Positions 7,632 through 39,745 are shown, numbered from the stretch's first letter. The stretch is 41,318 nucleotides of DNA from Aliarcobacter sp. (GCA_017995775.1 JAGOIF010000008.1:1-41318), one strand, 5' to 3'. A program made the numbers and translations. Notes: a model not told the origin generated them from the sequence alone.

Positions 7632-9167
7632 ATGAAACACGTACCAATCGTAGTATTAGATTTCGGTAGTCAATATACTCAAATCATTGCAAGAAAACTT
7701 AGAGAATCAGGTGTTTATTCTGAAATAGTACCTTACAGTGAAAGTATAGAAGACATAATGGCTAGAACTCCAAAAGGAATTATTCTTTCAGGTGGTCCAG
7801 CGTCTGTTTATGCGGTTGATGCTTATCATCCAGATGCTACTATCTTTGAACTTGGTCTTCCAATTTTAGGTATTTGTTATGGAATGCAGTTAATTTCACA
7901 ACATTTTGGTGGTTCTGTAATCCCAGCAATTAACCATGAATATGGAAAAGCAAGATTAAAATTTGAAGTAGAAAATCCAATTTTTAAAGACACAACAGAT
8001 GGTCAAATAGTATGGATGTCTCATGGAGATAAAGTAGAAAATATTCCTTCAGGATTTCAAAAAATTGCAACAAGTGAAAACTCACCATTTGCAGCTATTG
8101 CAAATACAGATAGAGGAATTTATGCATTTCAATTTCACCCTGAAGTTTATCATTCAGCTGAGGGTTCAAAATTACTTAAAAACTTTGCAAAACATATTTG
8201 TGGTTGTGAAAGTACTTGGAATATGGGTTCATTTGCAAAAGAGCAAATTAGAAGAATTCAAAAACAAGTTGGAAAGAAAAAAGTATTATGTGGAGTTTCA
8301 GGAGGAGTTGATAGCTCTGTTGTAGCAACACTTTTAGCAGAAGCAATAGGTGATCAAGTTATCCCTGTATTTGTTGATAATGGATTATTAAGAGCAAATG
8401 AGAGAGAACAAGTTGAAGCTATGTTTAAAGCACGTGGTGTAAAACTAATCACTGTTGATGCAAGCGAACAATTTTTAACAAAACTTGTAGGTGTTACGGA
8501 TCCTGAAAGAAAAAGAAAAATCATTGGAGAAACATTTATCGAAGTATTTGATAAAGAAGCAAAAAAACACGATGGTATTGAATTTTTAGCACAAGGTACA
8601 CTTTACACAGATGTTATTGAATCAGTTTCTGTAAAAGGACCTTCAAAAACAATTAAATCACATCACAATGTTGGTGGACTACCTGATTGGATGAAATTTG
8701 AATTAATTGAGCCACTAAGAGAAATCTTCAAAGATGAGGTTAGAGCTTTAGGATTAGAATTAGGACTTCCTCAATCAATGATTGGAAGACATCCTTTTCC
8801 TGGACCAGGACTTGCTATTAGAATCATGGGAGATGTAAATAAACCTGATTTAGAGATTTTAAGAAAAGCTGATACAGTTATGTTAGATGTTTTACATGCA
8901 ACTGGATATTATGATAAAACATGGCAAGCATTTACGGTATTATTAAACGTAAAATCAGTTGGTGTTATGGGTGATAATAGAACTTATGACAACACAATTT
9001 GTGTAAGAATAGTAGAAGCAACAGATGGAATGACAGCAACATTTGCTCATATTCCACATGAAATATTAGAAACAATTTCAAGAAGAATCATTAATGAAGT
9101 TAATGGAATCAACAGAGTTGTATATGATATAAGTTCAAAACCACCAGCAACAATTGAGTGGGAATAA
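7632..9167 (+). CDS. guaA: GMP synthase (glutamine-hydrolysing)
   Basis: GuaA converts XMP to GMP using ATP and glutamine. The 511-residue protein has the class I glutamine amidotransferase domain first: G-G-P-A-S-V-Y, the nucleophile cysteine in G-I-C-Y-G-M-Q, and the H-P-E of F-Q-F-H-P-E-V-Y. The ATP-pyrophosphatase P-loop S-G-G-V-D-S-S follows at about 219-225. The C-terminal dimerisation domain contains [10 protein letters not shown] and ends in the typical K-P-P-A-T-I-E-W-E. The start has an AGAAGGA site at 7617-7623. The gene is bounded by terminators on both sides, so it is probably transcribed alone. Confidence 0.97.
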
Positions 9168-9728: not shown

Positions 9729-10076
9729 ATTAACGACAATATAATTTATGCATTAATTGCACTCACAATTTTTATAGCCTATAAAAAATATACCCAATAT
9801 AAGGTATTAAAGATTATTCCAACTTTGATTAAGCAAGGTGGACAAATTGTTGATGTTAGAAGTATGGAAGAATTTGTTTACGCTCACAAAAACGGAAGTA
9901 TTAATATCCCATTAGATTCACTTAACAATAGAATGAATGAACTAGATAACACAAAACCTATAATTGTTTGTTGTGCCAGTGGAGGTAGAAGCGCAGCTGC
10001 AAAGCGTGCTTTTATTGCAAAAGGATTTAAAAATGTTCATAATGCTGGGACATGGAGATCTCTTGAAAAGTTTTGA
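9729..10076 (+). CDS. Membrane-anchored rhodanese-like protein with apparent ATT start
   Basis: The rhodanese domain (Q-I-V-D-V-R-S, then V-C-C-A-S-G-G-R-S-A-A with the catalytic Cys in the C-x4-R loop) probably transfers sulfane sulfur. The first conventional start codon in frame is TTG at 9825, which would drop the N-terminal part. Upstream of it the frame stays open to a TAG at 9723-9725 and encodes a plausible membrane helix (I-I-Y-A-L-I-A-L-T-I-F-I-A-Y) and a basic linker. AAGGA (9718-9722) lies exactly six bases before ATT at 9729, giving a 115-residue anchored protein. I therefore call ATT as the start; TTG 9825 has no good ribosome-binding site. The substrate and acceptor are unknown. 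Confidence 0.7.
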   Translation: MNDNIIYALIALTIFIAYKKYTQYKVLKIIPTLIKQGGQIVDVRSMEEFVYAHKNGSINIPLDSLNNRMNELDNTKPIIVCCASGGRSAAAKRAFIAKGFKNVHNAGTWRSLEKF

Positions 10077-32331: not shown

Positions 32332-32347
32332 AATAATGATTATTAAA
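32332..32347. promoter_or_regulatory. Possible TetR autoregulatory site
   Basis: AATGATTATT (32335-32344) is identical to the centre of the palindrome at 35266-35281 read on the other strand. It lies directly before the ribosome-binding site of the TetR gene. The flanks match less well (12 of 16 positions). Confidence 0.35.
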
Positions 32348-32356
32348 GGATAAGTT

Positions 32357-32950
32357 ATTTCTAATTTAAAAGAAACAAAAAAAAATACTATTATAGAAAA
32401 TGCTTTAAAACTTTTTTCACAAAAAGGTTTTTATAATACAACAATTCCTGATATTGCAAAAGCTATGAAAATGAGTGTTGGAAATATGTACAACTATTTT
32501 TCTTCAAAAGAAGAATTAGCAAAATTTGCTATTAAATACTCTACAAATATTTTAGCTATTGAATTACGAGAAGTTAATAATATGGAAATTACTTCAAAAG
32601 AAAAGATATATGTTTTTGTAAAAAAATATTTAGAAAATGTTCAAAAATCACCTGAAATTATTGAATATTTTTTAAGAGTTTATTTATCAAATAGAGAGGT
32701 ATTTAAACAAGGTTGTGAAGGTTTTTTATGTGTTGGAGAGTTTGTAACTGAAGTTATGATTTTACTTGATGAAGGTGCACAAAAAAAAGAGTTTAGAGAA
32801 CAAGATTTTTTCCCAGCTTTTGGAATGTTAATGGGATGTTTAGGTGGATTTGCTTTTTTAAGTGGTGAAAACGTTTTGCCTAAGGATTTATTATCATACA
32901 GTGATGCTGTTGCTGATAATATATATCGAGCATTAAAGTATGACGAGTAA
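32357..32950 (+). CDS. TetR/AcrR family transcriptional regulator with apparent ATT start
   Basis: The N-terminal helix-turn-helix is typical: T-I-I-E-N-A-L-K-L-F-S-Q-K-G-F-Y-N-T-T, I-P-D-I-A-K-A-M-K-M-S-V-G-N-M-Y-N-Y-F-S-S-K in two parts, with the recognition helix at about 39-48. The first ATG in frame (32465) would remove the first half of this domain, so translation must begin upstream. A TAA closes the frame at 32351, and AAAGGA (32345-32350) lies six bases before ATT at 32357, giving 197 residues. The C-terminal part is a ligand-binding helical domain of unknown ligand. It overlaps the HupU-like gene by 11 bases, so the regulator and the hydrogenase-like subunits form one operon. Confidence 0.85.
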   Translation: MSNLKETKKNTIIENALKLFSQKGFYNTTIPDIAKAMKMSVGNMYNYFSSKEELAKFAIKYSTNILAIELREVNNMEITSKEKIYVFVKKYLENVQKSPEIIEYFLRVYLSNREVFKQGCEGFLCVGEFVTEVMILLDEGAQKKEFREQDFFPAFGMLMGCLGGFAFLSGENVLPKDLLSYSDAVADNIYRALKYDE

Positions 32951-33833
32951 AAAAAAACCAACTATTGTTTGGTTTGCAGCAATTACGTGTAATGGAAATA
33001 CCCATTCATTATTAAGTGCAAATGCTTCAAGATTGGAGCTACTTTTTGATAGCTTTGATCTTATTTATCATCCAAGCCTAACAATAGATAAAAGTTTGAA
33101 TGATGTTTTACTTCAAAATGAAAAAATAGATTTTTTACTTATTGAAGGAGCAATTTCAGCAAATGAAAACTTTTTCTCAATCTCAAATGATTCTACTTTT
33201 AATATTTTAAATAAATTAGCATTAAAATCAAAACATATAATAGCAGTTGGTTCTTGCGCTTCAAATGGAGGAATTCACGCAAAATTCACACAAAATAGTG
33301 ATATTTGTGGGATTAATAACTCTATAAATGAAGAAGCATTAATAAACCTAGAACACAATATTATAAATCTAACAGGTTGTCCTGTTCATCCTGAATGGAT
33401 ACTTCAAACTTTATTTACTTTGAAAAATTATGGGAAAATGCAACTTGATGAGCAAAAAAGACCAAAAGAACTATATAGCACATTAGCTCATCATGGATGT
33501 ACAAGAAATGAGTATTTTGAGTGGAAAGTTGAAGGTTCTTTTGGAGAAAAAGAGGGATGTTTATTTTATGAACAAGGTTGTCGTGGTCCTATGACACATA
33601 GTTCTTGTAATAAAATTTTATGGAATGATATAAGTTCAAAAACAAGAGTAGGAATGCCTTGTATTGGATGTACTGAAAGTGATTTTCCAAGAGAAAATAT
33701 GTTAGAAACTAAAAAAAATATTGGAATACCTTTAGATGTTCCCCTTGGTATTTCAAAACGAGCTTATTTGTCAATTACTGGAATTGCAAAAACTTTTAAA
33801 ATAGATAGATTAAACAAAAAACTTATGGATTAA
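32940..33833 (+). CDS. hupU: [NiFe] hydrogenase small subunit, HupU/sensor type (no Tat signal)
   Basis: The 297-residue protein starts directly with the flavodoxin-like domain and has no twin-arginine signal or membrane anchor, so it is cytoplasmic, as in the H2-sensing (HupU/HoxB) or group 2 hydrogenases. Cluster motifs are G-S-C-A-S-N-G-G (Cys106), T-G-C-P-V-H-P (Cys147), H-H-G-C (Cys187), E-G-C-L-F-Y-E-Q-G-C-R-G-P, S-S-C-N and C-I-G-C-T-E. The first motif, normally C-x-x-C for the proximal cluster, is I-T-C-N-G-N, with Asn20 in place of the second Cys. It pairs with HupV directly downstream. Electron transfer or H2 sensing is inferred from family and context. Confidence 0.85.
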   Translation: MTSKKKPTIVWFAAITCNGNTHSLLSANASRLELLFDSFDLIYHPSLTIDKSLNDVLLQNEKIDFLLIEGAISANENFFSISNDSTFNILNKLALKSKHIIAVGSCASNGGIHAKFTQNSDICGINNSINEEALINLEHNIINLTGCPVHPEWILQTLFTLKNYGKMQLDEQKRPKELYSTLAHHGCTRNEYFEWKVEGSFGEKEGCLFYEQGCRGPMTHSSCNKILWNDISSKTRVGMPCIGCTESDFPRENMLETKKNIGIPLDVPLGISKRAYLSITGIAKTFKIDRLNKKLMD

Positions 33834-33835
33834 AT

Positions 33836-35188
33836 ATGAAAACAGTTGAAATAATTGAACGAATTGAAGGTGAAGCAAAATTGTCTTGTAGCTGGGAAAA
33901 TAATCTTGTAAGTGATGTAAAAATTGATTTTTTAAATTTCAGAGGTTTTGAATATATCTTAGAAGGAAAATCTCCACTTGATGCGCTTATTTATACTCCA
34001 AGAATTTGTGGAATTTGTGGACAAGCTCATCTAAAAGCTACGGTTGAGGCTTTAGAAAATATGTATGAAAATATAAATGAACCTTTACATGTGAGTAATA
34101 AAGCAAAATTATTACGAGAAATTGGTTTGAATATTGAAATAATTGATTCTCATATAAAATGGTTTTATATGTTTATTCTTCCTGATATTATTAAACTAGA
34201 TACAAATGACTTAGGAATTTATGCTCCTTTAAAAGGAACTAGATGGTTAGAATCTTGTAAGACAGCCAGTGAAACTATAAAAGCCTTAGCAATAATTGGA
34301 GGTCAATGGCCTCATACTTCATATATGATGCCAGGGGGAGTTGTATGTGATCCTACTTTACTTGAATTAACTTCCATGCAAAACTATATGGATAGTGCAA
34401 TTAGATTTTTTGAAAAATCATTAAGTGGAGTTGATTTTGATAAATATTTATCTTTTAATAGTGAAAAAGATTTACAAGAATTAAGAGCAGATTTAGGATA
34501 CTTTAGAGATTTATCTTTTAAATATTCCCTAGAAATTTATGGAAAATCCCATGATAGATTTATAACTTTAGGAACATCATCTTTATTTGAAACAGGAAAA
34601 ATAAGACAAAGATTAATAAATAAACTAGATTTATCAAAGATAAAAGAGAGCAGTGAACATATTTTTTTATTGGAAAATGAAAATAGTAATAAAAAAAATA
34701 ATTGGTGCAAAACTGTATCCTATGATAATGATTTCTTTGAAACAGGACCATTAGCTAGAGCCATAATATCAAATAGAAAATTTATAAAAGATATTCATAA
34801 AACATATAATGATTCTTCTTTTACAAGAATATTAGCAAGAATGGATGAGTTAGCCCATTTATTGCAAAATACAAAAGAATTAATAAAAAAAGTTGATATA
34901 AGTGAAGAATCTTTTATCAAACCTAAATTTGATTTAAGAGATATAGAACAAGCAAATGGAATTTCCGTAATAGAAGCGGCAAGAGGTTCTTTGTATCATA
35001 ATATAAGCATTGAAAAAGGAAAAATATCAAAATATGATGTTATTACTCCTACTGTTTGGAATTTAGGACCTGCTAGTAAAAAAGAAAAAGGAGTAGCCCA
35101 AAAAGCAATAATTGGGACACCATCTATTGAACTTGCTAAGATTGTTCTTAGAAGTTTTGACGTTTGTTCTGTTTGTACTACCCACTAA
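33836..35188 (+). CDS. hupV: [NiFe] hydrogenase large subunit, HupV/sensor type
   Basis: The 450-residue protein holds the NiFe site. The N-terminal ligand motif is R-I-C-G-I-C-G-Q-A-H (56-65). The C-terminal motif is D-V-C-S-V-C-T-T-H, and that His is the last residue. Lack of the cleaved C-terminal peptide is typical of regulatory (H2-sensing) hydrogenases, which mature without a protease step. Val replaces the usual Pro of D-P-C-x-x-C. The protein is smaller than HydB in the same window (580). It follows the small subunit by two bases. Known partners of HupUV are the HupT/HupR kinase-regulator pair; none is present here, and a TetR gene heads the operon instead. Confidence 0.87.
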   Translation: MKTVEIIERIEGEAKLSCSWENNLVSDVKIDFLNFRGFEYILEGKSPLDALIYTPRICGICGQAHLKATVEALENMYENINEPLHVSNKAKLLREIGLNIEIIDSHIKWFYMFILPDIIKLDTNDLGIYAPLKGTRWLESCKTASETIKALAIIGGQWPHTSYMMPGGVVCDPTLLELTSMQNYMDSAIRFFEKSLSGVDFDKYLSFNSEKDLQELRADLGYFRDLSFKYSLEIYGKSHDRFITLGTSSLFETGKIRQRLINKLDLSKIKESSEHIFLLENENSNKKNNWCKTVSYDNDFFETGPLARAIISNRKFIKDIHKTYNDSSFTRILARMDELAHLLQNTKELIKKVDISEESFIKPKFDLRDIEQANGISVIEAARGSLYHNISIEKGKISKYDVITPTVWNLGPASKKEKGVAQKAIIGTPSIELAKIVLRSFDVCSVCTTH

Positions 35189-35265
35189 ATTGTTTATATT
35201 TGTAACAATTTAAAAAATTCTTTAAAAATATTTTTAAATAAAATTTTTTATTATAAAATACAAAT

Positions 35266-35281
35266 ATGAATAATCATTCAT
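35266..35281. promoter_or_regulatory. Palindromic operator-like site 1 upstream of hydA
   Basis: ATGAATAATCATTCAT is a 16-base palindrome with one mismatched pair (halves ATGAATA and CATTCAT, two-base centre), extended by AT on both sides. Size and form are typical of TetR-family operators. Confidence 0.5.
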
Positions 35282-35400
35282 ATAAAATCCCATATATACT
35301 ATTATCATCATTTTGTTGAAATAAAAAAGCTATTTTAATGCTATTTTGGGGCTTTTCTCATTAAGTAAATAATAAGTTTTATATTGTTAATTTACAATAA

Positions 35401-35416
35401 GTAAATGAGCATTCAT
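35401..35416. promoter_or_regulatory. Operator-like site 2 upstream of hydA
   Basis: GTAAATGAGCATTCAT shares the right half CATTCAT and spacing with site 1; the left half matches at five of seven positions. AAATGA and TCATTT within 35403-35418 are also exact complements. It touches the hydA ribosome-binding site, a position suited to repression. Confidence 0.4.
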
Positions 35417-35433
35417 TTTAAGGAGTGAAAAAT

Positions 35434-36669
35434 ATGATTGATTCAACAGAGATGGTAAAAAAAGTTTTTACACAAAAATCAGGAAGAATTGAAACAAATA
35501 AGGGTGACAAATATTACAACTCATTATTTGAAAAAGCAAAACAAAGGTTATCAGATTTAAGAGCACAACCAGCACTTAAAGAAGTTGATATGATGGATAT
35601 TATAGAGAGTGAAGGCGTAAATAGAAGAGATTTTATGAAGTGGGTTAGTGCTACAACTGCTACACTTATGCTTCCTCCTATGTTTGCTCCACTTGTAGCA
35701 GAAGCTACTGAACTTATGAATAGAGTTCCTGTTATTTGGATTGAGTTACAAGATTGTGCTGGAAACTCAGAAGCACTTTTAAGAAGTTCAGCTCCAACAG
35801 TTGATGATTTACTTTTTGATGTATTAAGTTTAGAGTATCACGAAACTTTACAGGCATGTGCTGGACATGATGCAGATAAGCAACTAGAAGAAGCTGTTCA
35901 TCTTTATAAAGATAAATATCTACTTTTTGTAGAAGGTGCAATTCCTATGGCTATGAATGGTCAATATGGAACAATTGGAGCTATGGGTGAAACATTCCAT
36001 GATCACTTAATAAGAATGGCAAAAGATGCAGCAGCTGTTGTGGCTGTGGGAACTTGTGCAACATTTGGAGGAGTTCCAGCAGCTGCACCAAATCCAACAG
36101 GTGCTGTTGGGGTTATGGATTTAGTAAAAGGTAAGCCAATTGTAAATATTCCAGCTTGTCCAGCTAATCCTGCAAATATGGTTGGTGTTATTTTACATTA
36201 TGTATTAACAGGGCAAATTCCAGAACTTGATTCACTTTTAAGACCAAAATTTGCATTTGGTTATAGAATTCATGATAACTGCGAAAGAAGAGCACATTTT
36301 GATGCTGGTGAATTCGTAGAAGAGTGGGGAGATGAGGGAGCTAAAAACAACTTCTGTTTATACAAAGTTGGATGTAAAGGTCCAATGACTTTTAATAACT
36401 GTTCAATCATTAGATATAACGAAGGTACAAACTGGCCAATTGGTGTAGGTCGAGGTTGTATTGGATGTTCTGAGCCAGATTTTTGGGATAAATATGCCTA
36501 TGAAAGACCAATGGCAGATGCAAAAATCAAAGCACCAACTGGTGGAGTTGAGAAAACTGTTGATGAGTTTGGTTTAGGATTATTAACAGCAACTGCTGTT
36601 GGTATTGGAGTTCACGCAGTAGCATCAGCCATTGCTGGTAAAAAATCAAATGTAGAGGAAGAAAAATAA
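35434..36669 (+). CDS. hydA: Membrane-bound uptake [NiFe] hydrogenase small subunit
   Basis: HydA carries electrons from the NiFe site through three Fe-S clusters to cytochrome b HydC. From ATG 34 bases into the 35400 block (AAGGAG eight bases upstream; a GTG three codons earlier overlaps that site) it has 411 residues. An unusually long N-terminal leader precedes the Tat motif N-R-R-D-F-M-K-W (Arg64-Arg65), so the folded complex is exported. The C-terminal hydrophobic anchor lies at about 380-402. Cluster ligands include Cys208, Cys242, I-H-D-N-C, F-C-L-Y-K-V-G-C-K-G-P, N-N-C-S and C-I-G-C-S-E. The proximal motif is D-C-A-G-N-S-E: Cys108, then Asn111 where Cys is usual. An extra Cys142 follows E-Y-H-E-T-L-Q-A. 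Confidence 0.93.
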   Translation: MIDSTEMVKKVFTQKSGRIETNKGDKYYNSLFEKAKQRLSDLRAQPALKEVDMMDIIESEGVNRRDFMKWVSATTATLMLPPMFAPLVAEATELMNRVPVIWIELQDCAGNSEALLRSSAPTVDDLLFDVLSLEYHETLQACAGHDADKQLEEAVHLYKDKYLLFVEGAIPMAMNGQYGTIGAMGETFHDHLIRMAKDAAAVVAVGTCATFGGVPAAAPNPTGAVGVMDLVKGKPIVNIPACPANPANMVGVILHYVLTGQIPELDSLLRPKFAFGYRIHDNCERRAHFDAGEFVEEWGDEGAKNNFCLYKVGCKGPMTFNNCSIIRYNEGTNWPIGVGRGCIGCSEPDFWDKYAYERPMADAKIKAPTGGVEKTVDEFGLGLLTATAVGIGVHAVASAIAGKKSNVEEEK

Positions 36670-38411
36670 TGGCAAACAAACACTTAGTAATAGATCCAAT
36701 TACAAGAATTGAAGGACATCTTAGAATCGAAGCAATCATCGATGAAAATAATGTTGTAGTTGATGCCTTTTCTTCTTCAACTATGTTTAGAGGAATAGAA
36801 GAGATTCTAAAAGGAAGAGACCCAAGAGATTGTGGTTTATTAGCAATGAGAATTTGTGGAGTTTGTACAGGAACTCACTATCAAAGAAGTATTGAAGCTG
36901 TTGAGCATGCTTTTAATATTACGATTCCTAAAAATGCAAGACTAGTTAGAAACTTAATTCAAGGTGCTTTATATTTACATGATCATATTGTTCATTTTTA
37001 TCATTTACATGCACTTGACTGGGTTGATATTACAAAAGCTTTAGAAGCAGATCCTAAAAAAACTGTAATAGAAGCACAAAAGTGGGCAGCACTTTCAGGA
37101 CAAAAACCATGGAATGCAAATGAAGATGTTTATTCAGAAGTTCAAAGTAGAGTTACAAGATATGTAAAACAAGGAAGACTAGGAATCTTTGGAAATGCTT
37201 ATTGGGGATCAAAAGGATTTAAATTAACTCCTGAGCAAAATTTAATTGGACTTTCTCACTATTTAGATGCTTTAGAATTACAAAGAGAATTAGCAAAAAT
37301 GATGGCTATTTTTGGTGGTAAAAATCCACATCCACAATCTTTTGTTGTAGGTGGAGTAACTTGTGTTCAAGATATTAAAAATCCTGCAAGAATTGCTGAA
37401 TTTAAACAAATTCTAAAAAAAGCTCAAAAGTTTACAAAACAATCATATTTACCAGATGTTTATATGGCTGGAACTATGTATGCTGATGAAGCACTAGAAG
37501 GAATTGGTGGTGGAATTGGAAACTATATGTGTTATGGAGGGTTTAATCAAGATGATTTACCTTTTTATGAATCTTCTAAATTATTTCCATCAGGAATTGT
37601 TAAAAATAGAGATTTAACAAAAGTTTTTGATATTGACCAAACAAAAATTACAGAAGATGTAACCCATGCTTGGTATGAAGGAACTACAAACTTACACCCT
37701 TATGATGGAGTTACAAAACCCGCATATACTGGATTTGCTAGAAAAGAAGACAACATTGCTTATTTAGATACAAAAAATAAGTATTCTTGGATTAAATCAC
37801 CACTTTATGATGATGAAAGAATGGAAGTAGGCCCACTTGCAAGGATGATAGTTGGAGTTGCACGAGGTGATGAAAGAATTTCAAAATATGTAACAACTTT
37901 TCTAAAAAATGGAAATTTGCCTATAAAAGTTTTATTTTCAACAGTAGGTAGAACAGCTGCCAGAGCTATTGAGACTGAACTTATGGTTGATATTATGATG
38001 ACGTGGATTGATGAATTAGCTTCAAATGTTGCCCATGGTGATTTATCAACTTGGACAGAATTTAATTTTGACAATGTTTCTAAAGATGCTCAAGGTTTTG
38101 GTATGGAAGAAGCTCCAAGGGGTGGATTAGGACATTGGATTAAAATTAAAGATGGAAAAGTAGCAAACTATCAAGCTGTTGTTCCATCAACTTGGAATGC
38201 AGCTCCTAGAGATTATAAAGGAAGATTAGGTGCTTATGAGTCATCATTAATTGGTACAAAAGTAGCAAATCCAGATCAACCACTTGAAATTTTAAGAACA
38301 ATTCATAGTTTTGATCCATGTATTGCTTGTGCTGTGCATATTATTGATACAAATGGTAAAGAATTAGGTGTTTATAAAGTAGATCCAATTGGAGGAACAA
38401 GCCGTGCCTAA
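36669..38411 (+). CDS. hydB: Membrane-bound uptake [NiFe] hydrogenase large subunit
   Basis: HydB holds the NiFe(CN)2CO site and splits H2. The 580-residue protein has R-I-C-G-V-C-T-G-T-H at 61-70 and D-P-C-I-A-C-A-V-H at 549-557. The 23 residues after His557 form the C-terminal extension that a maturation protease removes after nickel insertion. That is the likely job of HydD encoded downstream. It has no signal of its own and would cross the membrane with HydA. Its ATG shares a base with the hydA stop (TAATG), so subunit synthesis is coupled. It is closely similar in plan to the Wolinella and Helicobacter enzymes that feed menaquinone. Confidence 0.95.
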   Translation: MANKHLVIDPITRIEGHLRIEAIIDENNVVVDAFSSSTMFRGIEEILKGRDPRDCGLLAMRICGVCTGTHYQRSIEAVEHAFNITIPKNARLVRNLIQGALYLHDHIVHFYHLHALDWVDITKALEADPKKTVIEAQKWAALSGQKPWNANEDVYSEVQSRVTRYVKQGRLGIFGNAYWGSKGFKLTPEQNLIGLSHYLDALELQRELAKMMAIFGGKNPHPQSFVVGGVTCVQDIKNPARIAEFKQILKKAQKFTKQSYLPDVYMAGTMYADEALEGIGGGIGNYMCYGGFNQDDLPFYESSKLFPSGIVKNRDLTKVFDIDQTKITEDVTHAWYEGTTNLHPYDGVTKPAYTGFARKEDNIAYLDTKNKYSWIKSPLYDDERMEVGPLARMIVGVARGDERISKYVTTFLKNGNLPIKVLFSTVGRTAARAIETELMVDIMMTWIDELASNVAHGDLSTWTEFNFDNVSKDAQGFGMEEAPRGGLGHWIKIKDGKVANYQAVVPSTWNAAPRDYKGRLGAYESSLIGTKVANPDQPLEILRTIHSFDPCIACAVHIIDTNGKELGVYKVDPIGGTSRA

Positions 38412-39105
38412 GATTAAAGAGGTTAAAAGAATGACAGGAACTATGAGAATCGTACATTGGCTAAATGTTATTTGTATGGTAGTTGCTGTCATAACCGGTT
38501 TATATATAGGTCACCCTTATTATCAAACTTTTATTGCTGATCCTGCTGTGGATAAGTATGTAATGGCTTGGAATAGATGGGGGCATTTTATTGTTGCAAT
38601 TATCTTTGATGTAACAGCTATTTTAATAGCTTATTTATATTTCTTTTCAAGATTTGAAAAACCATATAAAAAGCTAATTCCAACTTGGACAAATATAAAA
38701 GAGTTTTTTGAAGTTTTTTTAAATTTAATTACTTTTAATAGAAGAAAAAACTTTGATTCATCTCACAGTGATTCTTATAACATTGTATTTTTTACAATCT
38801 TTCACTTATTACTTGTATTTATGCTATTAAGCGGACTTCAACTTTATGTTCATGGTTTAGCCTCAGGAATAAGTTCAATAGGTGCTTGGTGGCCTGCAAT
38901 GTTACATCTTGCAACTGATTGGACACTTGAAGTTTTTGGTGGAAATATGGGAGTTAGAATTGCTCATCATACCTCAATGTATTTAATTTTAGTTTGGGTT
39001 ATGTGTCATATTTATTATCAAGTTTGGAGAACAATTTTCTGGAGAGAAGGTGATATTTCCATTGTTGTTGGTGGTAGCAAATTTGTAAGAGAAGAAGAAA
39101 AATAA
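38404..39105 (+). CDS. hydC: Hydrogenase cytochrome b subunit
   Basis: HydC anchors HydAB on the periplasmic face and passes electrons to menaquinone through two b haems. The product has about four transmembrane helices. Candidate haem ligands are His in I-V-H-W-L-N (first helix), H-F-I-V-A, and H-H-T-S and C-H-I-Y-Y-Q-V in the last helix, as in the Ni/Fe-hydrogenase cytochrome b family. I chose GTG 38404 as start (233 residues) because GGAGG (38391-38395) lies eight bases before it; a TTG at 38389 overlaps that site. It overlaps the end of hydB by eight bases. A G+C-rich hairpin follows the stop. Confidence 0.92.
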   Translation: MPKIKEVKRMTGTMRIVHWLNVICMVVAVITGLYIGHPYYQTFIADPAVDKYVMAWNRWGHFIVAIIFDVTAILIAYLYFFSRFEKPYKKLIPTWTNIKEFFEVFLNLITFNRRKNFDSSHSDSYNIVFFTIFHLLLVFMLLSGLQLYVHGLASGISSIGAWWPAMLHLATDWTLEVFGGNMGVRIAHHTSMYLILVWVMCHIYYQVWRTIFWREGDISIVVGGSKFVREEEK

Positions 39106-39151: not shown

Positions 39152-39745
39152 ATGAAAAAGAAAAATATTGTAATTGGTGTGGGAAATATGCTTTTTAAGG
39201 ATGAAGGTATTGGTATTTATGCTGCTGAGTATATTAGTCAAAATTATAAGTTTGATGATAAAGATTTAGAAATCATTGATGGTGGAACATTAGGATTTAA
39301 ACTAATGACATATTTTCAAGAATATGACAATGTTATTATTTTAGATACTGTGTCTATTGAAGATGAGGTGGGAAGTATTTATAGACTTCCATCTGATGTA
39401 CTTTTAGGACTGGGAACTTATAGAAAAACAGCCCATGAAGTTGAAATTGTAGAAATGTTAGAAATTGTTTCTGTTTTAGATTCCTATGCAAATGTAACAA
39501 TTATAGGAATAATTCCAAAAGATATAATAAGTGTAGGAATAGGGCTAACTGCTACAATGGAAGATAAATTTGAAGAGTTTATTTTAAATGGTATAAAAGA
39601 GATAGAAAGCTTAGGTATAAAAGCTACAAAAGTAAAAAATATATTGATTCCTGACATTGTAAAAAGTATGATAGGTAGTTACAATGGCGAACATTTAACA
39701 AGAATTCCAAACGAAGAAGATTTCACCCATGCAATTAATTTATAA
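39152..39745 (+). CDS. hydD: Hydrogenase maturation protease (HyaD/HupD family)
   Basis: This protease removes the C-terminal extension of HydB once nickel is in place. The 197-residue protein has the family start V-I-G-V-G-N-M-L-F-K-D-E-G-I-G and the nickel-sensing residues Glu18, Asp65 (in I-I-L-D-T-V) and His95 (in K-T-A-H-E-V-E), corresponding to Glu16, Asp62 and His93 of E. coli HybD. AAGGTG precedes the ATG. It has only one obvious substrate in this window, HydB, since HupV ends at its last ligand. Its 3' end overlaps the HydE-like gene by 17 bases. Confidence 0.92.
   Translation: MKKKNIVIGVGNMLFKDEGIGIYAAEYISQNYKFDDKDLEIIDGGTLGFKLMTYFQEYDNVIILDTVSIEDEVGSIYRLPSDVLLGLGTYRKTAHEVEIVEMLEIVSVLDSYANVTIIGIIPKDIISVGIGLTATMEDKFEEFILNGIKEIESLGIKATKVKNILIPDIVKSMIGSYNGEHLTRIPNEEDFTHAINL

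Follow-up and report, generated by a model that had tools for sequence, protein, structure and literature searches.

A conserved tetR-hupU-hupV unit in Campylobacteria as a candidate one-component hydrogen-sensing circuit directed at the hydABC uptake hydrogenase genes

The genes tetR, hupU and hupV form a fixed unit throughout the Campylobacteria, a conservation far wider than an earlier, sequence-only reading of this locus had stated. We consider it probable that they constitute a one-component unit in which the hydrogenase-like protein HupUV is a sensor acting on TetR, and TetR represses the uptake hydrogenase operon hydABCD. Coordinates given below refer to the window, i.e. the whole stretch of 41 318 nucleotides that was analysed.

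Results

Gene order and conservation of the unit

In the window, tetR (32357–32950, + strand) encodes a TetR-family repressor of 197 aa (PF00440, 2.4e-15) and has an AUU start codon. It is followed in the same direction by hupU (33833 being the last base; 32940–33833, + strand) and hupV (33836–35188, + strand). The overlap of 11 bases between tetR and hupU (32940–32950) described earlier was confirmed in the sequence, and the gap between hupU and hupV is two bases. HupU is a sensor-type [NiFe] hydrogenase small subunit (PF01058, PF14720) with the cluster-ligand columns and no signal peptide, and HupV is a hydrogenase-like large subunit (PF00374). An ATTGTT...AACAAT inverted repeat is located directly 3' of hupV (35189–35209), and similar elements occur in relatives.

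Downstream, on the same strand (+), are the genes for the small subunit (hydA, 35434–36669; TIGR00391, 5.5e-134) and the large subunit (hydB, 36669–38411; PF00374, 2.4e-216; pendant arginine present) of an uptake [NiFe] hydrogenase, a cytochrome b subunit (hydC, 38389–39105; PF01292, TIGR02125) and a hydrogenase maturation protease (hydD, 39152–39745; PF01750, TIGR00072). Pfam and NCBIfam searches revealed a HypF-like protein encoded after hydD. For hydA, the ATG at 35434 was favoured as start over the GTG at 35425, with a Shine-Dalgarno sequence at 35420–35425.

TetR homologues were found in 67 of 104 Arcobacteraceae genomes, and 60 Arcobacteraceae loci were compared, relatives of every degree included. 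The sequence-only reading had proposed to check the synteny of tetR-hupUV-hydABC in this family; we ran this check and found the order kept. tetR was followed by hupU in all 60 loci and hupV came next wherever the stretch was long enough, with hydABC nearly always after it. We then sought HupV in 397 genomes of the class and obtained 106 positives; outside the Arcobacteraceae, TetR was encoded directly 5' of HupU in 20 of 20 genera. A scan of GTDB contigs was evaluated for the best 80 relatives among the matches listed (the named loci). Essentially all of these 80 are labelled Campylobacterota, two records being titled only 'bacterium'. TetR adjoins hupUV in 70 of the 71 named loci where the contig was long enough for a decision; in the remaining one it is ~450 bases away. 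Two annotated plasmids, of Sulfurovum mangrovi and Sulfurimonas paralvinellae (L166, L167), carry the tetR-hupUV-hyd unit, which may therefore move between hosts.

Several Arcobacteraceae (L054, L062, L074) have an opposite-strand gene between hupU and hupV, with the tetR-hupU link intact. At one further Arcobacteraceae locus (L080), a membrane sensor histidine kinase gene lies between hupV (ending at 7706) and hydA (starting at 9826).

Start codon of tetR

An in-frame stop codon is present two codons upstream of the tetR start, and the first ATG, GTG or TTG occurs only at codon 37, within the DNA-binding domain, so that translation must begin at the ATT at 32357. The Shine-Dalgarno sequence AAGGA (32346–32350, + strand) lies 6 nt 5' of this codon. 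In 24 genomes, the Arcobacteraceae tetR has no ATG, GTG or TTG start; 23 of them have ATT or ATA there (one was unclear), and the spacing from AAGGA to the start is identical in 22 of the 24. The tetR genes of sister genera start with ATG, GTG or TTG. Automated gene calling would truncate the DNA-binding domain of a tetR that starts at AUU. Another gene with an AUU start is infC, and by analogy this codon may restrict the amount of the repressor.

Predicted TetR operators at hydA

Two palindromic sites had been claimed in the hydA control region. Both are present and are the top two sites of the 41-kb window. The distal predicted operator, ATGAATAATCATTCAT (35266–35281, neither strand assigned), is a 16-base palindrome and had the best score (20.2). 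The proximal one, GTAAATGAGCATTCATTT (35401–35418, likewise), came second (13.8); it includes the 16-base variant GTAAATGAGCATTCAT (35401–35416) noticed earlier, adjoins the hydA Shine-Dalgarno sequence and keeps its position before hydA in relatives. The third-best score in the window was 8.7. The matrix used for scoring was trained on 53 sites, all from outside the Arcobacteraceae, to limit circularity.

Conservation of the hydA palindrome in Arcobacteraceae, a check suggested by the sequence-only reading, was then examined. All 55 promoters tested scored high, each score being reached by at most 1 in 100 shuffles. In this family the motif is TGAAT-N4-ATTCA or AAATGAAYRTTCATTT, directly 5' of the hydA Shine-Dalgarno sequence. 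The same motif precedes hydA in other genera and was present in 64 of the 77 named loci with hydA (of the best 80); with the strict pattern, no site was found near hydA in the other 13 of these 77. At some loci of the class (e.g. L146 and L147), the operator is located ~70–80 nt 5' of hydA and not at its start. Both the missing and the displaced sites count against the proposed circuit.

The exact palindrome pattern had two copies in the genome of 2.5 Mb, a number not above that of the reversed control. At such a frequency a single copy proves nothing, and it is conservation that carries weight. The second exact copy, on contig C45, is flanked by two genes of no apparent relation to the system and is probably due to chance. 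When two mismatches were allowed, a 14-base pattern had no value in the AT-rich genome (151 matches versus 107 in the control), and conservation and the out-of-family matrix were therefore used instead.

Half-site spacing differs between the distal and the proximal site, so that two TetR dimers might bind in different registers. A possible −10 element, TACAAT (35393–35398, + strand), was read by eye and is not among the consensus promoter matches; scanning the hydA region for consensus promoters gave no better result than scanning shuffles. If TACAAT is the −10 element, the proximal operator would overlap the transcription start. The direct repeat GCTATTTT, with copies 11 bases apart (GCTATTTTAATGCTATTTT, 35329–35347), recurs in many relatives' hydA promoters and looks like a putative activator site. 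A TAAGT..TAAGTTT repeat is present near the hydA promoter at 35363–35379, with similar elements in relatives.

Natural controls

The predicted site was found in none of ten Arcobacteraceae hydA orthologues (70–90 percent identity) from genomes without a TetR match, one of these genomes (G017) being only about half complete. In two genomes (G078 and G064) the orthologous hydABC genes are missing, and a different downstream hydrogenase (~50 percent identity) carries the predicted site. Its loss without the unit and its presence at a replacement hydrogenase indicate that the site tracks the regulator, not the hydrogenase gene. At a locus with no hydA beside the unit (L154), a strong operator at 9820 (reverse complement) precedes a putative psrABC-type reductase operon, which suggests a wider regulon.

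Region upstream of tetR

The sequence-only reading had also proposed that TetR represses its own gene through a ten-base copy of the palindrome at 32335–32344. This copy exists (on the − strand) but scored −8.7 and is not conserved in relatives. We regard it as a chance AT-rich match and not as an operator, and autoregulation through it is not supported. In many other Arcobacteraceae a good predicted site is located ~66–75 nt 5' of tetR, the genus of the window being mostly without it, and 24 of 61 tetR upstream regions had site scores reached by at most 1 in 100 shuffles. These sites make autoregulation likely in the relatives and suggest that the genus of the window has for the most part lost it.

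Absence of the classical kinase-activator pathway

No HoxJ/HupT kinase gene adjoins hupV within the window. Searching its own assembly for the sigma54-activator domain gave only weak AAA+ matches (best: 35 bits) and no NtrC-type activator. Such activators are also absent from ten complete genomes that bear the unit (G002, G003, G006, G035, G055, G078, G080, G083, G091 and G094). Other unit-bearing complete genomes contain a strong match, which in G011 is a NifA-type GAF-AAA-HTH protein without receiver domain; of the matches in G102, the second is a homologue of GAF type, again without receiver domain. The earlier statement that no NtrC-type partner is present was thus borne out in the own assembly and in these ten complete genomes.

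Properties of TetR

The TetR_N domain was recognized at 56.5 bits (PF00440, cut-off 24). An AF2 model (pLDDT 89.5) has an ordinary TetR fold with an all-helical C-terminal domain and matches TetR structures with Z scores of up to 20.2. The TetR-family protein FadR of Bacillus is among the closest solved folds (Z ~19.7, 2.3–2.5 Å over 184–187 residues). The identity is ~20 percent, however, and a Cys-X4-Cys loop and a hydrogenase partner are features of the present TetR family.

The two cysteines of this loop (Cys120 and Cys125) are invariant in 81 of 81 sequences, down to ~50 percent identity, and a Cys-X4-Cys also occurs in all 74 TetRs of the named loci (of the best 80). The stretch 99–126 is the most conserved region of the protein, slightly above the DNA-binding domain (0.87 versus 0.81), and in the model forms a less certain loop (~70) between helices 6 and 7. 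In TetR proteins, the helix 6–7 region commonly connects the DNA-binding domain with the effector domain. The conserved stretch could be explained by a redox switch, by a site for a metal or FeS cluster, or by a surface on which HupUV docks; of these, we favour a redox or contact link. Among the matches listed in the fold search, no TetR was described as FeS- or thiol-switched, which is not evidence of absence.

Properties of HupU and HupV

As claimed earlier, HupV is without the cleaved C-terminus; it ends in DVCSVCTTH, with nothing after the motif of the last nickel-binding cysteine. Termination at CxxCxx[HQK] without extension was found in all 76 aligned HupV sequences and at 79 of the 80 named loci. 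No variation was seen in the four nickel cysteines (76/76) or in the catalytic glutamate, the DPC motif is changed to D[VIE]C in 76 of 76, and the pendant arginine is missing in 73 (Arg in 3/76), the HupV of the window having Ala. This arginine is kept in HydB, in the 2b and 2c sequences and in two of three 2a sequences read. It has been described as strictly conserved (R509 in Escherichia coli Hyd-1), and an Arg-to-Lys change in E. coli enzymes leaves ~1–10 percent of the H2 oxidation activity (PMC10430524). Since the residue is important for fast H2 activation and is lost in HupV, the signal could differ from H2. A change of the canopy Asp in HupV was dropped as a sign of inactivity because group 2a sequences have Ser there too, and only the Arg change is used as an argument.

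In a maximum-likelihood tree, campylobacterial HupV formed one clade with full support, separate from the other groups sampled (2a, 2b and 2c). The label 'HupUV-type' given earlier is therefore loose: it suits the extension-free large subunit but not the separate position from HoxBC/HupUV. Like these group 2b proteins, HupU and HupV are a soluble small/large pair without signal peptide, in which the large subunit stops right after the last Ni-binding Cys motif. A regulator gene lies directly 5' of the small-subunit gene in both (in Cupriavidus the order is sigma-54 regulator, small, large subunit), and both are linked to hydrogen oxidation genes. Unlike in group 2b, the regulator here is a TetR instead of an NtrC-type activator, which the genome lacks, and HupV is ~24 percent identical to HoxC, falls into its own clade and has the pendant Arg and the DPC motif changed. 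Compared with HoxB, HupU ends earlier, and Lys occupies the position of an additional HoxB Cys. HydA (CAGN motif) and HupU (N20) both have Asn at the second Cys of HoxB's proximal cluster CxxC motif. The best HupV matches outside Campylobacterota are group 2a-like (~30 percent identity); the Huc-type group 2a and 2c enzymes, unlike HupV, retain the C-terminal extension and are encoded next to a maturation protease gene.

Discussion

From the operator predictions we strongly infer that TetR represses hydABC directly through the hydA palindromes: bound 5' of hydA, it would block transcription of hydABCD. Control of TetR by HupUV, H2 as the signal and the Cys-X4-Cys loop as the link between the two proteins are further inferred parts of this model. 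The soluble HupUV would be the sensor, activated most likely by reaction with H2, and would act on TetR via the alpha6–alpha7 loop by electron transfer or contact. TetR would then leave the operator and hydABCD would be made. In this way TetR would replace the HoxJ/HoxA kinase-activator pair of the classical H2-sensing system, and in many other Arcobacteraceae it appears to control its own operon too. Of the circuit sketched in the sequence-only reading, the part aimed at hydABC fits the comparison, as unit and hydA sites occur class-wide and vanish together and NtrC-type activators are absent, while the autoregulatory part at 32335–32344 falls away.

The same kind of gene pair is known as the cytoplasmic group 2 hydrogenase 'HupSL' of Sulfurospirillum, Sulfurimonas, Nautilia and Arcobacter. 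The papers examined treat it as an uptake or possibly sensing enzyme and draw no connection between the TetR and an operator at hydABC. Its function has been called speculative, with sensing, low-potential (ferredoxin-linked) uptake and H2 production proposed (PMC4584964, PMC7952632, PMC2628731). In Sulfurospirillum multivorans, a TetR gene upstream of hupSL was noted as a possible hupSL repressor; hydB was transcribed in nearly every condition, irrespective of H2, and hupL barely (PMC5357620). For that organism, these expression data are the chief argument against a simple induction by H2. We found no paper linking the hupUV-adjacent TetR to hydABC in the open-access literature, subscription papers lying mostly outside the search. 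The TetR neighbour is already published; the proposed TetR/HupUV-hydABC circuit does not appear in the published work searched.

TetR might instead repress hydABC in answer to a small metabolite, with HupUV being a catalytic cytoplasmic uptake hydrogenase that shares operon and regulon and feeds low-potential electrons, a role that has been proposed for the Aquifex-like group 2 enzyme. Catalysis would agree with what has been suggested in print for Sulfurimonas, Nautilia and Sulfurospirillum. Small ligands are usual for TetR proteins, FadR, which the model resembles, responds to acyl-CoA, and the site 5' of tetR-hupUV in many Arcobacteraceae is also compatible. However, the lost pendant Arg (73/76), the altered DPC motif (76/76) and the missing maturation extension argue against a catalytic HupUV. 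In S. denitrificans, transcripts were recovered but no soluble H2-uptake activity was detected (PMC4584964), which fits a non-catalytic role. The nearly exclusive pairing of TetR with HupUV also speaks against this explanation, which we consider unlikely.

HupUV could also be a pseudo-hydrogenase reporting a cue other than H2 to TetR, such as redox state, the state of cofactor maturation or a different diatomic gas. The retained Ni cysteines of HupV without the pendant Arg would fit, as would the very tight binding of a diatomic ligand by the arginine-to-lysine variant of E. coli Hyd-2 (PMC10430524). The target is an H2-uptake operon, however, and the residual turnover of the E. coli Arg-to-Lys variants (~1–10 percent) could suffice for a sensor; we regard such a cue as rather improbable. 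That the hydA palindromes belong to another regulator or arose by chance in AT-rich DNA, TetR regulating its own operon only, has very little probability. The genome-wide frequency of the 16-base pattern, no higher than in the reversed control, would fit; against it stand independent training, conservation in 55 of 55 promoters, loss with the unit and presence at the replacement hydrogenase.

What the cytoplasmic group 2 hydrogenase of Campylobacterota does is a matter of open dispute in the literature. A sensor role is favoured by the near-exclusive TetR partner and by predicted hydA operators that co-vary with the unit, and since an output protein and predicted DNA sites are now named, the disputed role becomes directly testable. 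More tentatively, and with a little less than even confidence, we propose a class-wide one-component gas-sensing circuit in which an Arg-less hydrogenase-derived protein passes electrons or a shape change to the Cys-X4-Cys of TetR, giving phosphorylation-free H2 control of respiration. If true, an H2 sensor would be wired to a repressor rather than to a phosphorelay in the Campylobacterota, which are important at hydrothermal vents and in sediments.
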